From positions 1 through 6,968 of the forward strand of contig JBKPCR010000449.1 in assembly GCA_046727435.1 (NCBI GenBank): a stretch of DNA of 6,968 nucleotides. The letters run 5' to 3'. The notes beneath the pieces were generated by a model, which was not told the DNA's origin, made no database searches, and was given only the letters and a program-made list of their open reading frames with translations. Positions 3 to 6,968 of this stretch are shown here, in pieces (the first letter of the stretch is position 1; each line of letters opens with the position of its first letter). A program made the position numbers and the translations under genes. The DNA comes from CAVPRW01 sp046727435 [NCBI: bacterium] (GTDB lineage Bacteria; Tectomicrobia; Entotheonellia; J063).

Positions 3-440
3 ATCTTCGTTAATCATAAAGGCCACCGGAAGGCCAAGCGAGTCGGCACAGGAAAGGAGGGGCACAGAGTGGCTATAGCGGCGGCCGAGAAGATCCAGGC
101 GCGGCTGGTGCTGGGTGACTTGTCGCTGTTGGAGGAGCCGCGCCCACAGGAGATCACGCTGCAAGAGTACGGGCACCAATGGCTGACGACCGATGTGACC
201 CTACGGCTCAAGCCTGCTACCGTGGAAAAGTACAGGGAAGTCCTCCGCAAGCACTGGCTGCCCGAGCTGGGCAAGTTGCCCTTGTCAGATATCACGCGCG
301 ATCAGGTGAAAACCATTCTGCAGGGGAAGCTCATGGAGGGGATGAAGCCCAATATGGCTCGCATCATGCTGACGGTGCTCCGAGCGTGCCTCTACGCAGC
401 CGTAGAGGAGGGGCGACTAACGGGCAATCCTGCTGCCCGA
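3..440 (+). pseudogene. Tyrosine recombinase (phage-type integrase), N-terminal part of a broken gene, incomplete at left edge
   Basis: This is the front part of a site-specific tyrosine recombinase, the enzyme that inserts or excises mobile DNA. The frame is already open at base 3, so the gene begins outside the window; the GTG at 69 is internal. Residues read at 3-70 (IFVNHKGHRKAKRVG and onward) fit the arm-type DNA-binding domain. Bases 150-440 encode a SAM-like core-binding domain (TLQEYGHQWL, KPATVEKYREVL, then a helix ending AAVEEGRLTGNPAAR). After codon 438-440 the similarity stops, although the frame stays open to the TAA at 639-641 with implausible sequence. The catalytic domain should follow here, but its first half, with the first catalytic Arg and the Lys, is absent. 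The rest resumes in another frame at about 481. The family call is firm from motif recognition; inactivity is inferred from the missing catalytic part. Confidence 0.85.
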
Positions 441-480
441 TCACTTTCGCTGTCTGGTTTGGATTCCGCTGTTCACATAG

Positions 481-738
481 GCAGGTTTGGGGTATCGCAA
501 GCCCCACACGCTCCGTCACACCTTCGCGTCGATGCTGATCCAGGCAGGGGAAAGCCTCGCGTACGAGGAAGAACAACTGGGGCACTCATCCATCACCATC
601 ACAGTGGACACGTACGGGCATCTCATCCCCGGGACGAATAAAGCCGCCGTGGATCGCCTGGATGATGCCACCCGACGCAACCCCGGCGCAACCAGTGTGG
701 CAGGGACGCTCCGCGTGGTCAGAGGGGGACGTGTGTAA
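481..738 (+). pseudogene. Tyrosine recombinase, C-terminal catalytic box of the same broken integrase
   Basis: This carries the last third of the integrase catalytic domain, in frame 1 (the front part is in frame 3). It shows the conserved HTLRHTFAS box (second catalytic Arg), LGHSS (the His/Trp position) and TVDTYGHLIPG with the Tyr nucleophile, then the usual tail NKAAVDRLDDATRRNPGA. An in-frame TAG at 478-480 stops the frame just before the homology starts, and the TTG at 487 is not a credible start. Compared with a normal integrase of this type, about 130-150 residues are missing between this block and the N-terminal part. The stop at 736-738 overlaps the likely start of the methyltransferase gene downstream. 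The remnant marks the site of a former integrated element, but no att repeat or tRNA gene is visible. Confidence 0.85.
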
Positions 739-1510
739 CCATATACAGAATCAAAGAAATCACCATATCACCCTCGACACCCTGGCCGGTGACTGGCGGA
801 TCTTTCAGCTTCGCCGCGGCTATCGGTTCTCCACCGATGACCTGCTGACGGCATGGGTGGCGGTGCGAGCCCAGCCCGAGGCTCGCCGGCTGCTCGACCT
901 CGGGTCCGGCATTGGCTCTGTCGGCTTACTGGCCCTCTGGAAGTTGCCGGCCGAGGGAAACCTTACCATGGTCGAGGTGCAAGCAGTCAGCCATGCACTC
1001 GCAGGCCGCACAGTTGTGCATAACGGTCTCACCGCACGTGTGACGCTGCAACTCATGGACTTACGACGCTGGCCTGGCGGGAATTTCGATCTGATCACGG
1101 CCTCCCCACCTTATCGGCCGCTGGCCAGGGGCATTCGTCCACAGCATGCGCAAGCGGCGGCAGCACGGTTTGAGCTCCAGGGGGACATCTTCGACTACTG
1201 CAGCGCAGCGGCACGCTCCCTCGCAGACGCTGGTGTCTTTTGCTTCTGCCATACCGCCGACGATCTCCGGCCGGAGCAGGCTATTGCCTCATCGGGCCTG
1301 ACGCTCGTGCATCGACAGCTCGTATACTTCCGAGCGATGCTGCCACCACGCATTGCGCTCTTCACCTGCGCCTGGCGAGGGGCACGTGAAGATCCACCGC
1401 CACTGGTCATTCGCGATCGGGCAGGCCGCTGGACGGATGAGTACTTATCCATTCGCGAGGAGATGGGGGCTTCGGCGACGTTTCTGCAGCGAGCAAGAAG
1501 GACCCCGTGA
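731..1510 (+). CDS. TrmN6/YfiC-like SAM-dependent methyltransferase (COG4123 type)
   Basis: This is a Rossmann-fold SAM-dependent N6-adenine methyltransferase of the TrmN6/YfiC group; characterised members methylate A37 of tRNA1(Val) in the cytoplasm. With GTG at 731 the protein has 259 residues, normal for the group. The family's opening is present (TLDTLAGDWRIFQ, then GYRFSTDDLL), followed by motif I LLDLGSGIGSVGLLAL (about residues 54-69), the acidic motif II Glu in MVEVQ, the motif III Asp in LQLMDL, and motif IV SPPY (about 125-128), an accepted variant of NPPY. A conserved late block reads DPPPLVIRD..GRWTDEYL. I chose GTG 731 because GAGG lies at 722-725, five bases upstream, and no start codon lies between it and the conserved domain. 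ATG 662/665 or GTG 695 would add up to 23 residues read out of integrase DNA, without a visible Shine-Dalgarno. The gene looks intact. The exact substrate is inferred and could be another RNA or a small molecule. Confidence 0.85.
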   Translation: MCNHIQNQRNHHITLDTLAGDWRIFQLRRGYRFSTDDLLTAWVAVRAQPEARRLLDLGSGIGSVGLLALWKLPAEGNLTMVEVQAVSHALAGRTVVHNGLTARVTLQLMDLRRWPGGNFDLITASPPYRPLARGIRPQHAQAAAARFELQGDIFDYCSAAARSLADAGVFCFCHTADDLRPEQAIASSGLTLVHRQLVYFRAMLPPRIALFTCAWRGAREDPPPLVIRDRAGRWTDEYLSIREEMGASATFLQRARRTP

Positions 1511-1624
1511 CGTGTACGCGTATTGAACAAGTAGGAATCGGCACCAATCTTATCGCGTCCTTGGCAGGAGATGGGCTGTGCCAAAGCGAGCCCGGAGCGC
1601 CGTGCAGATTTGCTTGCTCGGTCT

Positions 1625-1786
1625 GAAGCTGAACTTGAAGCGGCCGCCAGCAGCCATAGCTTGCTCCTGCTCCGTCCCACTGAGGCGGGCAAGTTGATGC
1701 TAGCACGGCGGCTCACCACCATTCTGCCGGCCATGACCCTGGCGGAAGCCATCGAGACCACGCGCCTCCACCGCGTCGCTAGCTTC
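1625..1786 (+). pseudogene. ComM/YifB-type Mg-chelatase-like AAA ATPase, short degraded fragment
   Basis: Within a frame open from 1571 to 1891, only about 50 codons resemble anything. They match the P-loop region of ComM/YifB proteins, AAA helicases linked to natural transformation: ELEAAASSHSLLLL, then MLARRLTTILPAMTL, then EAIETTRLHRVA. The Walker A segment, normally GPPGxGKTML, reads RPTEAGKLML here, so the first Gly residues and the Thr after the Lys are lost. The Lon-like N-terminal domain and everything after the P-loop region (Walker B, sensor and C-terminal domain) are absent, while intact proteins have about 500 residues. The codons on either side (1571-1624 and 1787-1891) match nothing I know. 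It is a decayed fragment, not a functional small protein. I am fairly sure of the family and very sure it is broken. Confidence 0.7.
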
Positions 1787-1887
1787 ACTGAGGGGTTCAC
1801 CACAGGCAACAGCCGAATGCCGAGCCTTCCAGCTGCTTGCCCCGCAAATCGGTATTTGATTTCAGGACCTTCTTCATGCGGTCATTG

Positions 1888-2691
1888 CTAGCCCGATGCC
1901 ACGCGGGCGATAAGCTCGATGCCCGCCCCGACCGGGGGGCGAGCAAATGCCTCCCAGGCATTTCCTCCCCGCAGGAAGAGCTCCATCCAGCGCGTCTCGC
2001 CGCCTTGGGGACATGGCCATCCACTGCTGCCAGGGGCCAGGGCGAGTTGCCCGGGTTCGACGGCAAAGCTTCCGTCGCTCACCATAGCATCCTGCTCGGC
2101 GTGCCCGATACGGACGCGCACGATGGTACCTGCCGCCATCGCCTTGGCATGGAGCGGGATGGTCGTCTTCAGGTTGCCATAGCCGTCGATATAGGCGATT
2201 TGCTGCCCCGGAACTTCGGGGATGTCCGTCCGCCGTATGGCCTCTGCTAGTGCCTCCGGGCGGCCCAGGGCAATCGCGGCCGCAGCTTGTGGAAAGAGAT
2301 CGCGCGAGCGGAACTGGGAGCCAGCGGCTGGAGCAGCCGCCCAGCGCAAATCCTCCGCCACCTCCCGCACGAAGGCGAACGTGTAGCCAGCGTTTACGCC
2401 GATCACCCGCACCCCTGTGGGTAAACGTGCGAAGGCCAGGCGCTCGCCGGCATTGCCCACGCGAGCCTCGCGGGCATCTTGGCGTGGCGCCACGTTGTGG
2501 TAGATGAGGGTGCCAGCGGGGGCCGGGTTGAGCCCCAATTGGGCAACGCAAAAACCAGCGGCGAGCGTGGAAAAGGGCGGCACCGGCGTCAGGACCGGTT
2601 CCGCGTCGGGGAGGTAGCCTTTGAGGCGCTGCACGACTTCGGCAAAGGCAAGGTCGCTGGGGCCGTAATCGGCGACGATGTGCACTAACAT
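1888..2691 (-). CDS. SAM hydroxide adenosyltransferase (DUF62) family protein, divergent branch
   Basis: The 267-residue protein has the length and layout of the DUF62/SAM hydroxide adenosyltransferase family. Characterised members split S-adenosylmethionine into adenosine and methionine and are related to fluorinase and chlorinase. Seen here are the N-terminal VADYGPSDLAFAEV (Asp8 in place of the usual TDFG), the VPPFSTLAAGF stretch (about 37-47) matching the family's IPPFD..AGA, a central SQFRSRDLF..AAAAIALG (125-143) matching FHGRD.F..AA.LA.G, and in the C-terminal barrel IAYIDGYGNLKTTI (165-178), typical of the family. The catalytic triad looks changed: the usual VVDPGVG reads HNVAPRQ and the catalytic His position reads Arg128. 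The start ATG (2689-2691) has a perfect AGGAGG seven bases upstream (plus-strand 2699-2704); the stop is TAG at 1888-1890. The gene is intact and stands alone on the minus strand. Fold assignment is good; chemistry is uncertain. Confidence 0.8.
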   Translation of the reverse strand: MLVHIVADYGPSDLAFAEVVQRLKGYLPDAEPVLTPVPPFSTLAAGFCVAQLGLNPAPAGTLIYHNVAPRQDAREARVGNAGERLAFARLPTGVRVIGVNAGYTFAFVREVAEDLRWAAAPAAGSQFRSRDLFPQAAAAIALGRPEALAEAIRRTDIPEVPGQQIAYIDGYGNLKTTIPLHAKAMAAGTIVRVRIGHAEQDAMVSDGSFAVEPGQLALAPGSSGWPCPQGGETRWMELFLRGGNAWEAFARPPVGAGIELIARVASG

Positions 2692-2698
2692 CAGGGAA

Positions 2699-2704
2699 CC
2701 TCCT
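2699..2704 (-). promoter_or_regulatory. Ribosome binding site of the DUF62-family gene
   Basis: The plus strand reads CCTCCT, which is AGGAGG on the minus strand, seven bases before the ATG at 2691. It fixes that ATG as the start. I see no convincing -35/-10 pair farther upstream on the minus strand. Confidence 0.75.
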
Positions 2705-2861
2705 GTAGCAGATGCACGAGGCCTGGCCTCTGGGGACCGGGACGAGCCTTGCGTGCCGCCCGCCGCTGATCAGTGCCATGGAGAGGATGGAGGTCGCACC
2801 TGCGTAGCGGTCCGAGAGGCGCGCATAATCCCACCATGCTTTATCGTACACCGCCTTCCGG

Positions 2862-3202
2862 GTCGGCGCCAGCATCGACGGCGCGGGCTTGGCGGGACTG
2901 TGCACGGCCTGCGAGTTAGAGCAGCGTGGCCACACCTGTGTGCTGTCCTTCCAGAGCTCACGCCGAAGGGTCTCCTGCGCCGCACGGCGAGCTGGAACTG
3001 GGATACCCATCACTGGAGCGGGGGCGCCTTCGCATGGTTGATGCCAGGGCAGCATACGGCCCTACACAGACATCTCATCATGCCAGGAGGCCGTATCTTC
3101 TTCGCGGGCGAGCATGTCTCGCTGACGCACACCTGGATGCAGGGCGCTCTGGAATCGGGGCTGCAGGCGGTGCGAGACCTGCTGGCTACCGGTAGGCGTT
3201 AA
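2862..3202 (+). pseudogene. Flavin amine oxidase (monoamine/L-amino-acid oxidase type), relic with the middle deleted
   Basis: Both ends of an FAD-dependent amine oxidase are recognisable in two different frames. In frame 3, bases 2880-2945 encode GAGLAGL, two to three linking residues, then CELEQRGHTCVL: the N-terminal GxGxxG dinucleotide-binding motif and the helix after it (normally about 30 residues into the protein). In frame 2, from roughly 2950 to the TAA at 3200-3202, the frame reads SWNWDTHHWSGGAFAWLMPG, then GRIFFAGEHVSLTHTW, then MQGALESGLQAVRDLL. This is the classic C-terminal flavin-binding block, including the FAGEH motif. Intact enzymes have about 450-500 residues, so some 350 or more residues including the substrate domain are missing. 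Frame-3 stops at 2805 and 2826 lie close upstream and no start is evident. The relic diverges from the DUF62-family gene. It cannot make a working oxidase. Confidence 0.8.
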
Positions 3203-5500: not shown

Positions 5501-5536
5501 GGGGTGCGCCTCAGGGCTCCTGCCGGTGCGCACCCC
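5501..5536 (+). promoter_or_regulatory. GC-rich hairpin in the leader of the cyclase gene
   Basis: GGGGTGCGC (5501-5509) pairs perfectly with GCGCACCCC (5528-5536) across an 18-base loop. All nine pairs are Watson-Crick and eight are G-C. It sits 20 bases upstream of the AGGAGG of the cyclase gene. No T-run follows the stem. It could be a leader structure affecting translation, an operator, or a weak terminator of upstream transcription. The pairing is certain; the role is inference. Confidence 0.5.
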
Positions 5537-5556
5537 GGCCGCTTGCACGGTCGAGC

Positions 5557-5562
5557 AGGAGG
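5557..5562 (+). promoter_or_regulatory. Ribosome binding site of the cyclase/AAA gene
   Basis: A perfect AGGAGG lies eight bases before the ATG at 5571. It supports that start together with the zinc-ribbon Cys residues beginning at codon 3. Confidence 0.8.
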
Positions 5563-5570
5563 GCGTCCAC

Positions 5571-6968
5571 ATGCGCTGCCCACGCTGCGAGTCTGACAAT
5601 CCCGAGGGGATGAAGTTCTGCATTGAGTGTGCCGCCCCCCTCACGCGGCGCTGTCCCCACTGTGGTTTTGCGAATCCCCCGCAGGCGAAGTTCTGTGGAC
5701 AGTGTGCAACGTCGCTCAGTGGCTCGCTGCCAGCGGCTGCGTCATCTCCTCAAGCCATAGACTCCCAGGCGCCACTCAGCTATACCCCCGCATACCTCGC
5801 TCAGAAAATCCTACACTCCAAAACCGCTCTCGAGGGGGAACGCAAGCTAGTGACGGTGCTGTTCGCCGACCTGAAGGGCTCGATGGAGCTGTTGGCCGAT
5901 CGTGACCCCGAGGCAGCACGCAGGCTGCTCGACCCTGTGCTCGAGCGCATGATGGCCGCGGTGCATCGCTACGAAGGGACGGTAAACCAGGTGCTGGGCG
6001 ACGGCATCATGGCGCTGTTCGGCGCCCCCCTCGCGCATGAGGATCACGCAGTGCGAGCCTGTTATGCCGCCCTGGCCATGCAGGAGGCCATCCGCCACTA
6101 CACTGAAGAACTCCGCCACGCCCATGGGATCGAAGTGCAGATCCGGGTCGGCCTGAATTCCGGCGAGGTGGTCGTGCGCGCCATTGGCAACGACCTGCAT
6201 ATGGACTACTCGGCCATAGGCCAGGCCACGCACTTGGCGGCGCGTATGGAGCAGCTCGCCCCCCCCGGAAGCATTCGGCTAACGGCAGAAACCCTTCGGC
6301 TCGCAGAAGGGTTGGTCCAAGTCAAACCGCTTGGTCCGACCCCGGTTAAGGGCCTGTCATATCCCGTGGAGGTCTTCGAGCTTGCGGGCGCCTCGCCGGC
6401 CCGAACGCGTCTGCAGGCGTTTGCGGCCCGTGAGCTTACTCCCTTCGTGGGGCGTCAGGCGGAGCTCGAGGCCATCTGTCAGGCCTTAGAGCAGGCCGGG
6501 GCCGGCCACGGCCAGCTCGTGGCGGTCATCGGGGAGCCCGGGGTGGGCAAGACCCGCCTCTTCTACGAATTCATCTGTTCCCATCGCACCCACGGTTGGC
6601 TCCTGCTCGAAAGCCACGGGGTCTCCCACGGCAAGGCCACCCCCTACCTCCCCATCCGCGACCTCCTCAAAGCCTATTTTCAGCTCGAGGCGCGGGACGA
6701 TGGGGTACGGATCCGCGAGAAGCTCACTAGCAAGCTCCTCGCGCTGGATGAGGCCCTCAGGCCGACCCTGCCCGCCTTACTCACGCTTCTGGACGTGCCG
6801 GTCGAGGACCACGAGTGGCAGGCCCTCGATCCGCCCCAACGCCGCCAGCGGACCCTGGATGCACTCAAGCGCCTGCTGCTGCGGGAGAGTCAGGTCCAGC
6901 CCCTGGTGATGGTTTGCGAAAACCTCCACTGGATCGACACTGAGACCCAGGCGTTTCTCGACAGCCTG
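5571..6968 (+). CDS. Double zinc ribbon - class III nucleotide cyclase - AAA/STAND ATPase signalling protein (incomplete at right edge)
   Basis: This is the first 466 residues of a large cytoplasmic multidomain regulator; relatives run to about 1000-1150 residues with TPR-like repeats at the end. Residues 3-45 form a double zinc ribbon: Cys 3, 6, 17, 20 and Cys 28, 31, 42, 45. Residues 90-270 are a class III adenylate/guanylate cyclase domain, with metal-binding Asp100 in LFADLKGS and Asp144 in VLGDGIMALFG, and HLAARME at 221-227. The usual adenine-selecting Lys position is Gln140 and the transition-state Asn position is His221, while Arg225 is kept. Residues 290 onward are a P-loop ATPase: FVGRQAEL (292-299), Walker A GEPGVGKT (321-328) and a Walker B-like VMVCENLHWID (446-456). 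The start ATG has AGGAGG eight bases upstream. The frame is clean to the edge. Whether it makes cAMP is not shown by the sequence; the substituted residues leave this open. Confidence 0.9.
   Translation, partial: MRCPRCESDNPEGMKFCIECAAPLTRRCPHCGFANPPQAKFCGQCATSLSGSLPAAASSPQAIDSQAPLSYTPAYLAQKILHSKTALEGERKLVTVLFADLKGSMELLADRDPEAARRLLDPVLERMMAAVHRYEGTVNQVLGDGIMALFGAPLAHEDHAVRACYAALAMQEAIRHYTEELRHAHGIEVQIRVGLNSGEVVVRAIGNDLHMDYSAIGQATHLAARMEQLAPPGSIRLTAETLRLAEGLVQVKPLGPTPVKGLSYPVEVFELAGASPARTRLQAFAARELTPFVGRQAELEAICQALEQAGAGHGQLVAVIGEPGVGKTRLFYEFICSHRTHGWLLLESHGVSHGKATPYLPIRDLLKAYFQLEARDDGVRIREKLTSKLLALDEALRPTLPALLTLLDVPVEDHEWQALDPPQRRQRTLDALKRLLLRESQVQPLVMVCENLHWIDTETQAFLDSL

Follow-up and report, generated by a model that had tools for sequence, protein, structure and literature searches.

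The stretch of DNA analyzed here, 6,968 nucleotides of contig JBKPCR010000449.1 (hereafter the window, i.e., the stretch at its full length), carries at 1888-2691, on the minus strand, a gene for a protein with the fold of the S-adenosylmethionine (SAM) hydroxide adenosyltransferase/fluorinase/chlorinase superfamily. Structure prediction and alignment show that this protein (the window protein) belongs to a branch in which six SAM-contact positions are kept, and in which the Asp and the His of the Asp-Arg-His triad that activates water in the hydrolases are lost and replaced by residues of another, invariant set. From the alignment and the models we tentatively favor a reading in which the gene product would be a SAM adenosyltransferase that uses a nucleophile other than triad-activated water. 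The two reaction types described for this fold in the literature consulted are those of SAM with water and of SAM with a halide; a branch that keeps the SAM contacts and replaces the nucleophile side offers a natural comparison with these enzymes and bears on the question of a third reaction for the fold.

Assignment of the gene to the SAM_HAT fold is based on the open reading frame, on Pfam and on a structure model. The AlphaFold2 model of the window protein has a mean predicted local distance difference test score (pLDDT) of 88.3 and was computed from an alignment of 27 branch rows (without L008, which has masked residues, the degenerate L016/L077, the partial L078 and partial extra copies in G009 and G010). 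In Foldseek and VIA-align comparisons this model has the two-domain SAM_HAT fold and aligns from end to end with structures of DUF62 proteins, chlorinases and fluorinase. The VIA-align Z score is 22.9 for 2zbv (root-mean-square deviation 3.2, 238 residues aligned), 20.6 for 1wu8, 19.4 for 6ryz and 18.9 for 1rqp, the range for the DUF62 structures PH0463, MJ1651 and Thermotoga 2zbv being 20.6-22.9, while the next, unrelated fold reaches only 7.6. An earlier note on this gene, made from the sequence, had proposed a comparison of a predicted structure with DUF62 and fluorinase structures, and its outcome is this full-length match to DUF62, fluorinase and chlorinase (Z about 19-23). A model of a phage member of the branch (pLDDT 85.4) gave the same fold picture, with Z 23.1 for 2zbv; the window model had no match in BFVD at E 0.001. 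Sequence profiles are less decisive. The window protein scores above the cut-off of Pfam SAM_HAT_C (PF20257; 27.9 versus 25.5 bits), below that of SAM_HAT_N (PF01887; 18.7 versus 26.3 bits) and weakly against the NCBIfam (R)-SAM hydrolase model (15.9 bits versus a cut-off of 350). At E 0.01, SAM_HAT_N is matched by 22 of the 27 branch members and the NCBIfam model by 15 of them. Because SAM_HAT_N narrowly accepts five branch matches (27.3-32.6 bits), some members of the branch are already filed under PF01887; the SAM_HAT_C scores of the two phage proteins scanned (20.9 and 22.0) are under the cut-off.

In the excerpted literature, the hydrolase triad is D68-R75-H127 (PMC4859513), and it is called strictly conserved in DUF62 and absent from both halogenases (PMC10491745). 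The triad was read from a MAFFT alignment of 30 branch members, i.e., 27 bacterial proteins including that of the window and 3 from T4-like phage contigs, with 27 ordinary DUF62 proteins (24 genomic, 3 from the PDB) and 4 halogenases. The Asp68 column holds Ala in 30/30 branch members, Asp in 26/27 ordinary proteins (one gap) and Tyr in 4/4 halogenases, while the His127 column holds Arg in 30/30 branch members, His in 20/27 ordinary proteins (R, Q, A or D in the other 7) and Tyr in 4/4 halogenases. The Arg75 column is the least certain, because the loop carries an insertion there; it is Arg in 25/27 ordinary proteins (one Ala, one gap), Glu in the window protein and variable among the 30 branch members (E18, D3, K2, Q2, L2, A1, G1, I1). 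Thus, at the three triad positions all 30 members have Ala, a variable residue and Arg, and as no histidine is invariant in the branch, none is conserved that could rebuild the triad.

In the window protein the equivalents of PH0463 Asp68 and His127 are A68 and R128. The earlier note had picked out these two residues by eye, and they stand in both profile-profile and MAFFT alignments; a chance misalignment was rejected because the two methods agree at both positions. That note's premise of a family-wide triad fared less evenly: loss of Asp68 is complete in the branch, but His127 is not strict even in ordinary DUF62, and the loss of Asp68 is therefore the sharper mark. The ordinary sample was partly enriched in variant-like proteins, 12/24 genomic sequences coming from genomes that host the branch and 12/24 having been pulled by weak similarity to it; His is missing in 2/12 of the former and 5/12 of the latter. 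Judged from the sequences, the Ala/Arg change is more than chance, since it is common to all 30 members and the ratio of nonsynonymous to synonymous substitution rates (dN/dS) is 0.06-0.27 in pairs above 68% identity among 15 genes, many pairs having a high dS.

The seven PF01887 proteins in which the triad His has given way to R, Q, A or D (L027, L029, L084, L085, L090, L094 and L095) keep Asp68 in all six in which it is readable and Gly128 in 7/7. Six of them group with ordinary DUF62 in the tree described below, from which L095 was left out, and they are possibly further functional branches. One of them, L027, also lacks the Arg75 equivalent.

The SAM side of the site is that of the known enzymes. 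Residues given as critical for SAM and fluoride in the excerpt on fluorinase FlA are D16, D21, S23, W50, Y77, F156, N215, S269, R270 and A279, with S158 assigned to fluoride desolvation (PMC3999930). The segment D8-D13 of the window protein (DYGPSD; 2653-2670, minus strand) covers the positions of FlA D16 and D21, and D8 and D13 are identical in 30/30 branch members. Full identity in the branch extends to the positions of F156, N215 and S269 and of D210, which we take to belong to the SAM site, so that six SAM-contact positions are kept. The positions of D210 and N215 are in the segment D169-T177 (DGYGNLKTT; 2161-2187, minus strand), and that of S269 is occupied by S222 in P220-W225 (PGSSGW; 2017-2034, minus strand). 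The C-terminal IDGYGN motif described in the earlier note is retained.

On the nucleophile side, two loops have been rebuilt. Where ordinary DUF62 has VVDPGVGxxRR, the branch has, with an insertion, the segment Y64-E83 (YHNVAPRQDAREARVGNAGE; 2443-2502, minus strand), a replacement that the earlier note had also recognized and in which N66, A68, P69, R70, D72, R77, N80, G82 and E83 are invariant. The second segment, G124-D131 (GSQFRSRD; 2299-2322, minus strand), stands in place of TFHGRD and is identical in all 30 members. Near the C-terminus, E237-A245 (ELFLRGGNA; 1957-1983, minus strand) carries the invariant residues E237, R241 and A245; the R241 position is Asn in 19/25 ordinary DUF62 proteins. 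Residues that vary in ordinary DUF62 but never within the branch include N66, R70, D72, R77, N80, G82, E83, G124, S125, R128 and R241, whereas the invariant R130 is shared with ordinary DUF62. In the two loops (64-83 and 124-131) 17 of 28 positions are invariant as compared to 47 of 267 overall (hypergeometric p 5e-8, where the positions are not independent and the segments were chosen after the alignment had been viewed).

Two of these changes fall on positions linked to halide binding, which the excerpted source describes as residue pairs, T80-S158 in FlA and Y70-G131 in SalL (PMC4859513). At the FlA Ser158 position all 30 branch members have Ser (S129), while Gly is found in 27/27 ordinary DUF62 proteins and in 3/3 chlorinases. 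At the SalL Tyr70 position all 30 have Asn (N66), and V, I or L is found in 25/25 ordinary DUF62 proteins. As SalL Y70 aligns on FlA T75 and not on T80, S129 can be assigned to the halide site of the fluorinase with more confidence than N66.

Comparison with each characterized group gives the same picture of a shared frame and a separate residue set. With the DUF62 SAM hydroxide adenosyltransferases, or (R)-SAM hydrolases (PH0463, MJ1651, 2zbv), the branch has in common the whole fold and the six SAM-contact positions, but it has Ala for Asp68, Arg for His127, Ser for Gly128 and an unconserved Arg75 column. With FlA (1rqp) it shares the fold (Z 18.9), the six contacts, the absence of the triad and Ser at the Ser158 position, at 18% identity for the window protein in the structural alignment. 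The chlorinases SalL, ClA1 and ClA2 also have the same fold (Z 18.7-19.5), no triad and a polar residue at the Tyr70 position, but the branch differs from them in Asn for Tyr70 (N66), Ser for Gly131 (S129), Arg for Tyr at the His127 position and Ala for Tyr at the Asp68 position, i.e., the SalL halide pair is absent. The halogenases, too, keep the SAM contacts without the water-activating residues, and the branch follows the same pattern with a third set of residues.

The earlier note had suggested a distinct branch, which the tree and the scores bear out. A tree of 59 rows was built from 30 branch, 25 ordinary DUF62 and 4 halogenase sequences, C_L095 and C_L023 (incomplete) being left out, and a 100/100 split separates the branch from ordinary DUF62 and from the halogenases; midpoint rooting leaves 2.53 changes per column to one side and 2.69 to the other. 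Because long branches meet (C_L026 with the branch) and some rows, including those of phages, differ in composition, the tree places the branch with respect to the halogenases only tentatively. Scores are bimodal with a wide gap: among 198 genomes of the Actinomycetota phylum, four members scored 378-453 bits and ordinary DUF62 proteins followed at 25.5 bits or less, and the lowest full-length member in the other searches scored 348.8 bits.

The distribution of the branch is patchy and wide. A pattern-based scan, a method sensitive to close relatives only, covered 84,980 species with one genome apiece and gave 16 loci, of which 15 encode proteins that share 51-74% identity with the window protein along almost their entire length, the remaining one (L016) being degenerate; the record titles name Acidobacteriota, Propionibacteriaceae, Skermanella aerolata, Rubrobacteraceae/Rubrobacter, Pyrinomonadaceae, Phormidesmis priestleyi, Actinomycetota, Frankineae and Chloroflexi. 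Profile searches around single loci found the variant in 8/39 genomes of the class of a Rubrobacteraceae locus and, at the level of the phylum, in 10/292 for the Phormidesmis locus, 2/251 for Chloroflexi, 8/296 for Frankineae, 1/299 for Skermanella and 1/199 for Acidobacteriota, where the genome at the center of each search is counted in and some matches are partial. One cyanobacterial copy (L065) is 70-71% identical to the window protein, whereas the other nine are 50-55% identical, which suggests, from sequence comparison, a transfer between phyla. A degenerate copy of 107 residues with a large internal loss (L016/L077, the same contig) lies in an otherwise Rubrobacter-like gene order. A description of the branch was not found in the open-licence literature searched.

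The gene itself is intact. It runs without interruption from ATG at 2691 to TAG at 1888-1890 and encodes 267 residues plus the stop, and a Shine-Dalgarno sequence, AGGAGG, is found at 2699-2704 on the same minus strand, 7 nucleotides 5' of the ATG; the plus strand over 1888-2691 is not open, being interrupted by internal stops. These data agree with the span, the intact length and frame and the Shine-Dalgarno sequence given in the earlier note, which had left the strand unstated. The idea of a pseudogene was rejected on account of the uninterrupted reading frame, the low dN/dS and the absence of variation in the motifs.

Most host genomes also encode an ordinary DUF62 protein (above 140 bits in 11 of 14). 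In cyanobacteria an ordinary copy is present in 9/10 genomes with the variant and in 80/282 of the others (Fisher p 1e-4), a comparison made without control for genome size or ancestry and serving to show coexistence only. Because both kinds are present in the same genomes, the variant is not a stand-in for the ordinary enzyme, and a replacement of ordinary DUF62 is unsupported.

From the above discussion a mechanism may be outlined in which the gene product would be a working, SAM-binding adenosyltransferase of the superfamily. SAM would be seated as in the relatives of the protein; by analogy with fluorinase structures, the ribose would presumably rest on D8, the methionine end near D13, D169 and S222 and the adenine end near N173. 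The water-activating Asp-Arg-His triad is gone, and a polar, arginine-rich pocket (N66, R70, D72, R77, E83, R128, S129) would bind or activate a different nucleophile, perhaps a small anion, which would attack C5' of SAM with release of methionine. Four points of this outline are inferred: SAM as the substrate, the occurrence of a reaction, the grouping of the rebuilt residues around a single pocket and a nucleophile other than triad-activated water. A stronger claim, which we regard as possible and rather doubtful, is that the branch would constitute a third chemical class of the superfamily, spread over several bacterial phyla and T4-like phages, in which the 5'-adenosyl group is passed from SAM to a nucleophile other than triad-activated water and, as judged by the halogenase motifs, other than a halide handled in the FlA or SalL style.

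Several observations weigh against the adenosyltransferase reading or narrow it. Both rebuilt loops are of low confidence in the window and phage models, the lowest blocks of the window model being residues 71-80 (mean pLDDT 58), 121-130 and the C-terminal tail. Of the FlA residues listed above, S23, W50, R270 and A279 are unmatched, the window protein having A15, F40, S223 and G242 there respectively, although the R270 position is not Arg in the aligned ordinary DUF62 proteins either. FlA Tyr77 and Thr80 are likewise missing, with A68 and a variable residue in their places. According to excerpts of the respective papers, an RNAA motif (PMC12871659) and a unique 23-residue loop (PMC3999930) are criteria for a fluorinase; the window protein has LRGG where the C-terminal RNAA motif is expected, and at the loop it is 14 columns shorter than FlA and 8 longer than PH0463. 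With Tyr77, Thr80, the RNAA motif and the greater part of the long loop absent, a halide is no more than one of several candidate nucleophiles. Furthermore, no neighbor gene is common to three or more of 30 loci outside close relatives, and the absence of His127 from 7/27 ordinary DUF62 proteins of the partly enriched sample implies that the triad is perhaps less essential than the literature states.

The last point, should the proteins without His127 be active, also speaks for the main rival, in which the protein would still be a SAM or (R)-SAM hydrolase with water activated by another set that reaches the same spot from the longer loop, for example D72 or E83 together with R70, R77 or R128. 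We consider such an unconventional hydrolase rather unlikely. In its favor, the inserted loop that adjoins the lost Asp holds, within it or at its edge, the invariant D72, R77 and E83, and the lack of pathway genes nearby would suit a stand-alone clean-up enzyme; on the other hand, the branch has no conserved histidine, it has gained Ser and Asn at two halide-site positions, and its hosts usually have an ordinary DUF62 already. The arginines could instead hold a phosphate- or acid-bearing substrate, i.e., the enzyme would act on some other adenosyl or nucleoside compound, as the invariant R70, R77, R128 and R130 and the R241 that replaces a common Asn might indicate. This seems improbable in view of the six SAM-contact positions kept in every member.

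The least probable reading is that of a non-catalytic SAM-binding protein (a sensor, store or inhibitor), which in phages would be a SAM sponge against host defence. Kept SAM contacts with loss of the known catalytic triad would be expected of such a protein, and phage copies do exist, but the new invariant polar set in the loops is not obviously needed by a mere binder, and in one phage contig (L098) a DNA methyltransferase encoded two genes downstream would compete with a sponge for SAM. Of the two interpretations offered in the earlier note, altered chemistry fits, as far as the alignment goes, with SAM contacts that are kept and a nucleophile side that is rebuilt, but a purely SAM-binding role is less likely, since conservation in the rebuilt loops is among the highest in the whole protein. 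The adenosyltransferase reading with a different nucleophile thus remains the one preferred here.

Phage members were found in IMG/VR: four contigs matched the 27-row alignment, and a search with one phage protein brought in one more, whose copy is truncated at the end of the contig. The proteins are 37-40% identical to that of the window. The contigs represent about two lineages, because two of the proteins share 98% identity and the rest do not differ over the regions that they have in common; in the tree the phage proteins stand beside the cyanobacterial proteins with modest support (91/70). PHROGs identified a DNA polymerase on both contigs scanned, with a UvsX-like recombinase, a DnaB-like helicase, a transglycosylase and the DNA methyltransferase on L098 and a deoxycytidine monophosphate (dCMP) deaminase on L097, and these neighbors are read, from their sequences, as a T4-like replication block. 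On L097 the T4-like DNA polymerase (277-3040) is in two open reading frames with the dCMP deaminase gene between the halves. The phage copies raise the question of an enzyme that alters host SAM during infection.

The window protein itself had no match among 50,697 phage records (E 0.001) or 72,556 plasmid records (E 1e-6), and a phage-type protein had none among the same phage records, of which an ordinary DUF62 query matched eight, none over 80% of the query. PHROGs gave no match for the window protein or the phage protein, and PADLOC gave none. A gene of the ordinary DUF62 kind is named as a bacterial gene beside the prophage in work on Helicobacter prophages (PMC11321410), and a "SAM hydrolase" of 1,245 bp is reported for cyanophage S-CREM2 (PMC10665884).

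Neighbor genes were clustered over 30 oriented loci (that of the window and 29 others; pairs common to only two loci were not listed), and the neighborhood reveals no pathway. Shared groups are those of close relatives, i.e., five Rubrobacter-type loci and three near-identical cyanobacteria, and the immediate neighbors of the variant gene are otherwise unlike one another. An SBP_bac_5 solute-binding protein gene lies 713 bp from the window gene on the other strand and 32 bp downstream of the Phormidesmis priestleyi copy (L012) on the same strand; the link was dropped as probable chance, as the geometry differs and the family is common. An alpha/beta hydrolase downstream in L007 and L003 was also dropped, with two loci and different geometry.

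The rest of the window holds several incomplete genes, and no Rfam families or tRNAs were found in it. At 3-738 (plus strand) a phage-type integrase is in two frames, 3-641 for the N-terminal and middle parts and 487-738 for the catalytic C-terminal part (PF00589), and looks broken. The open reading frame at 1571-1891 (plus strand), likely a gene remnant, resembles the Mg-chelatase ChlI family over no more than 51 residues close to the family's N-terminus. Another, at 2678-3202 (plus strand), diverges from the variant gene, and in the frames as called the two have 14 bases in common at the start of that gene; of a flavin amine oxidase it retains just the C-terminal end (PF01593, positions 353-443 of 443), and it is likely a fragment. 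Finally, 5526-6968 (plus strand) encodes a protein with a zinc ribbon, a nucleotide cyclase and an AAA ATPase that runs off the window end.
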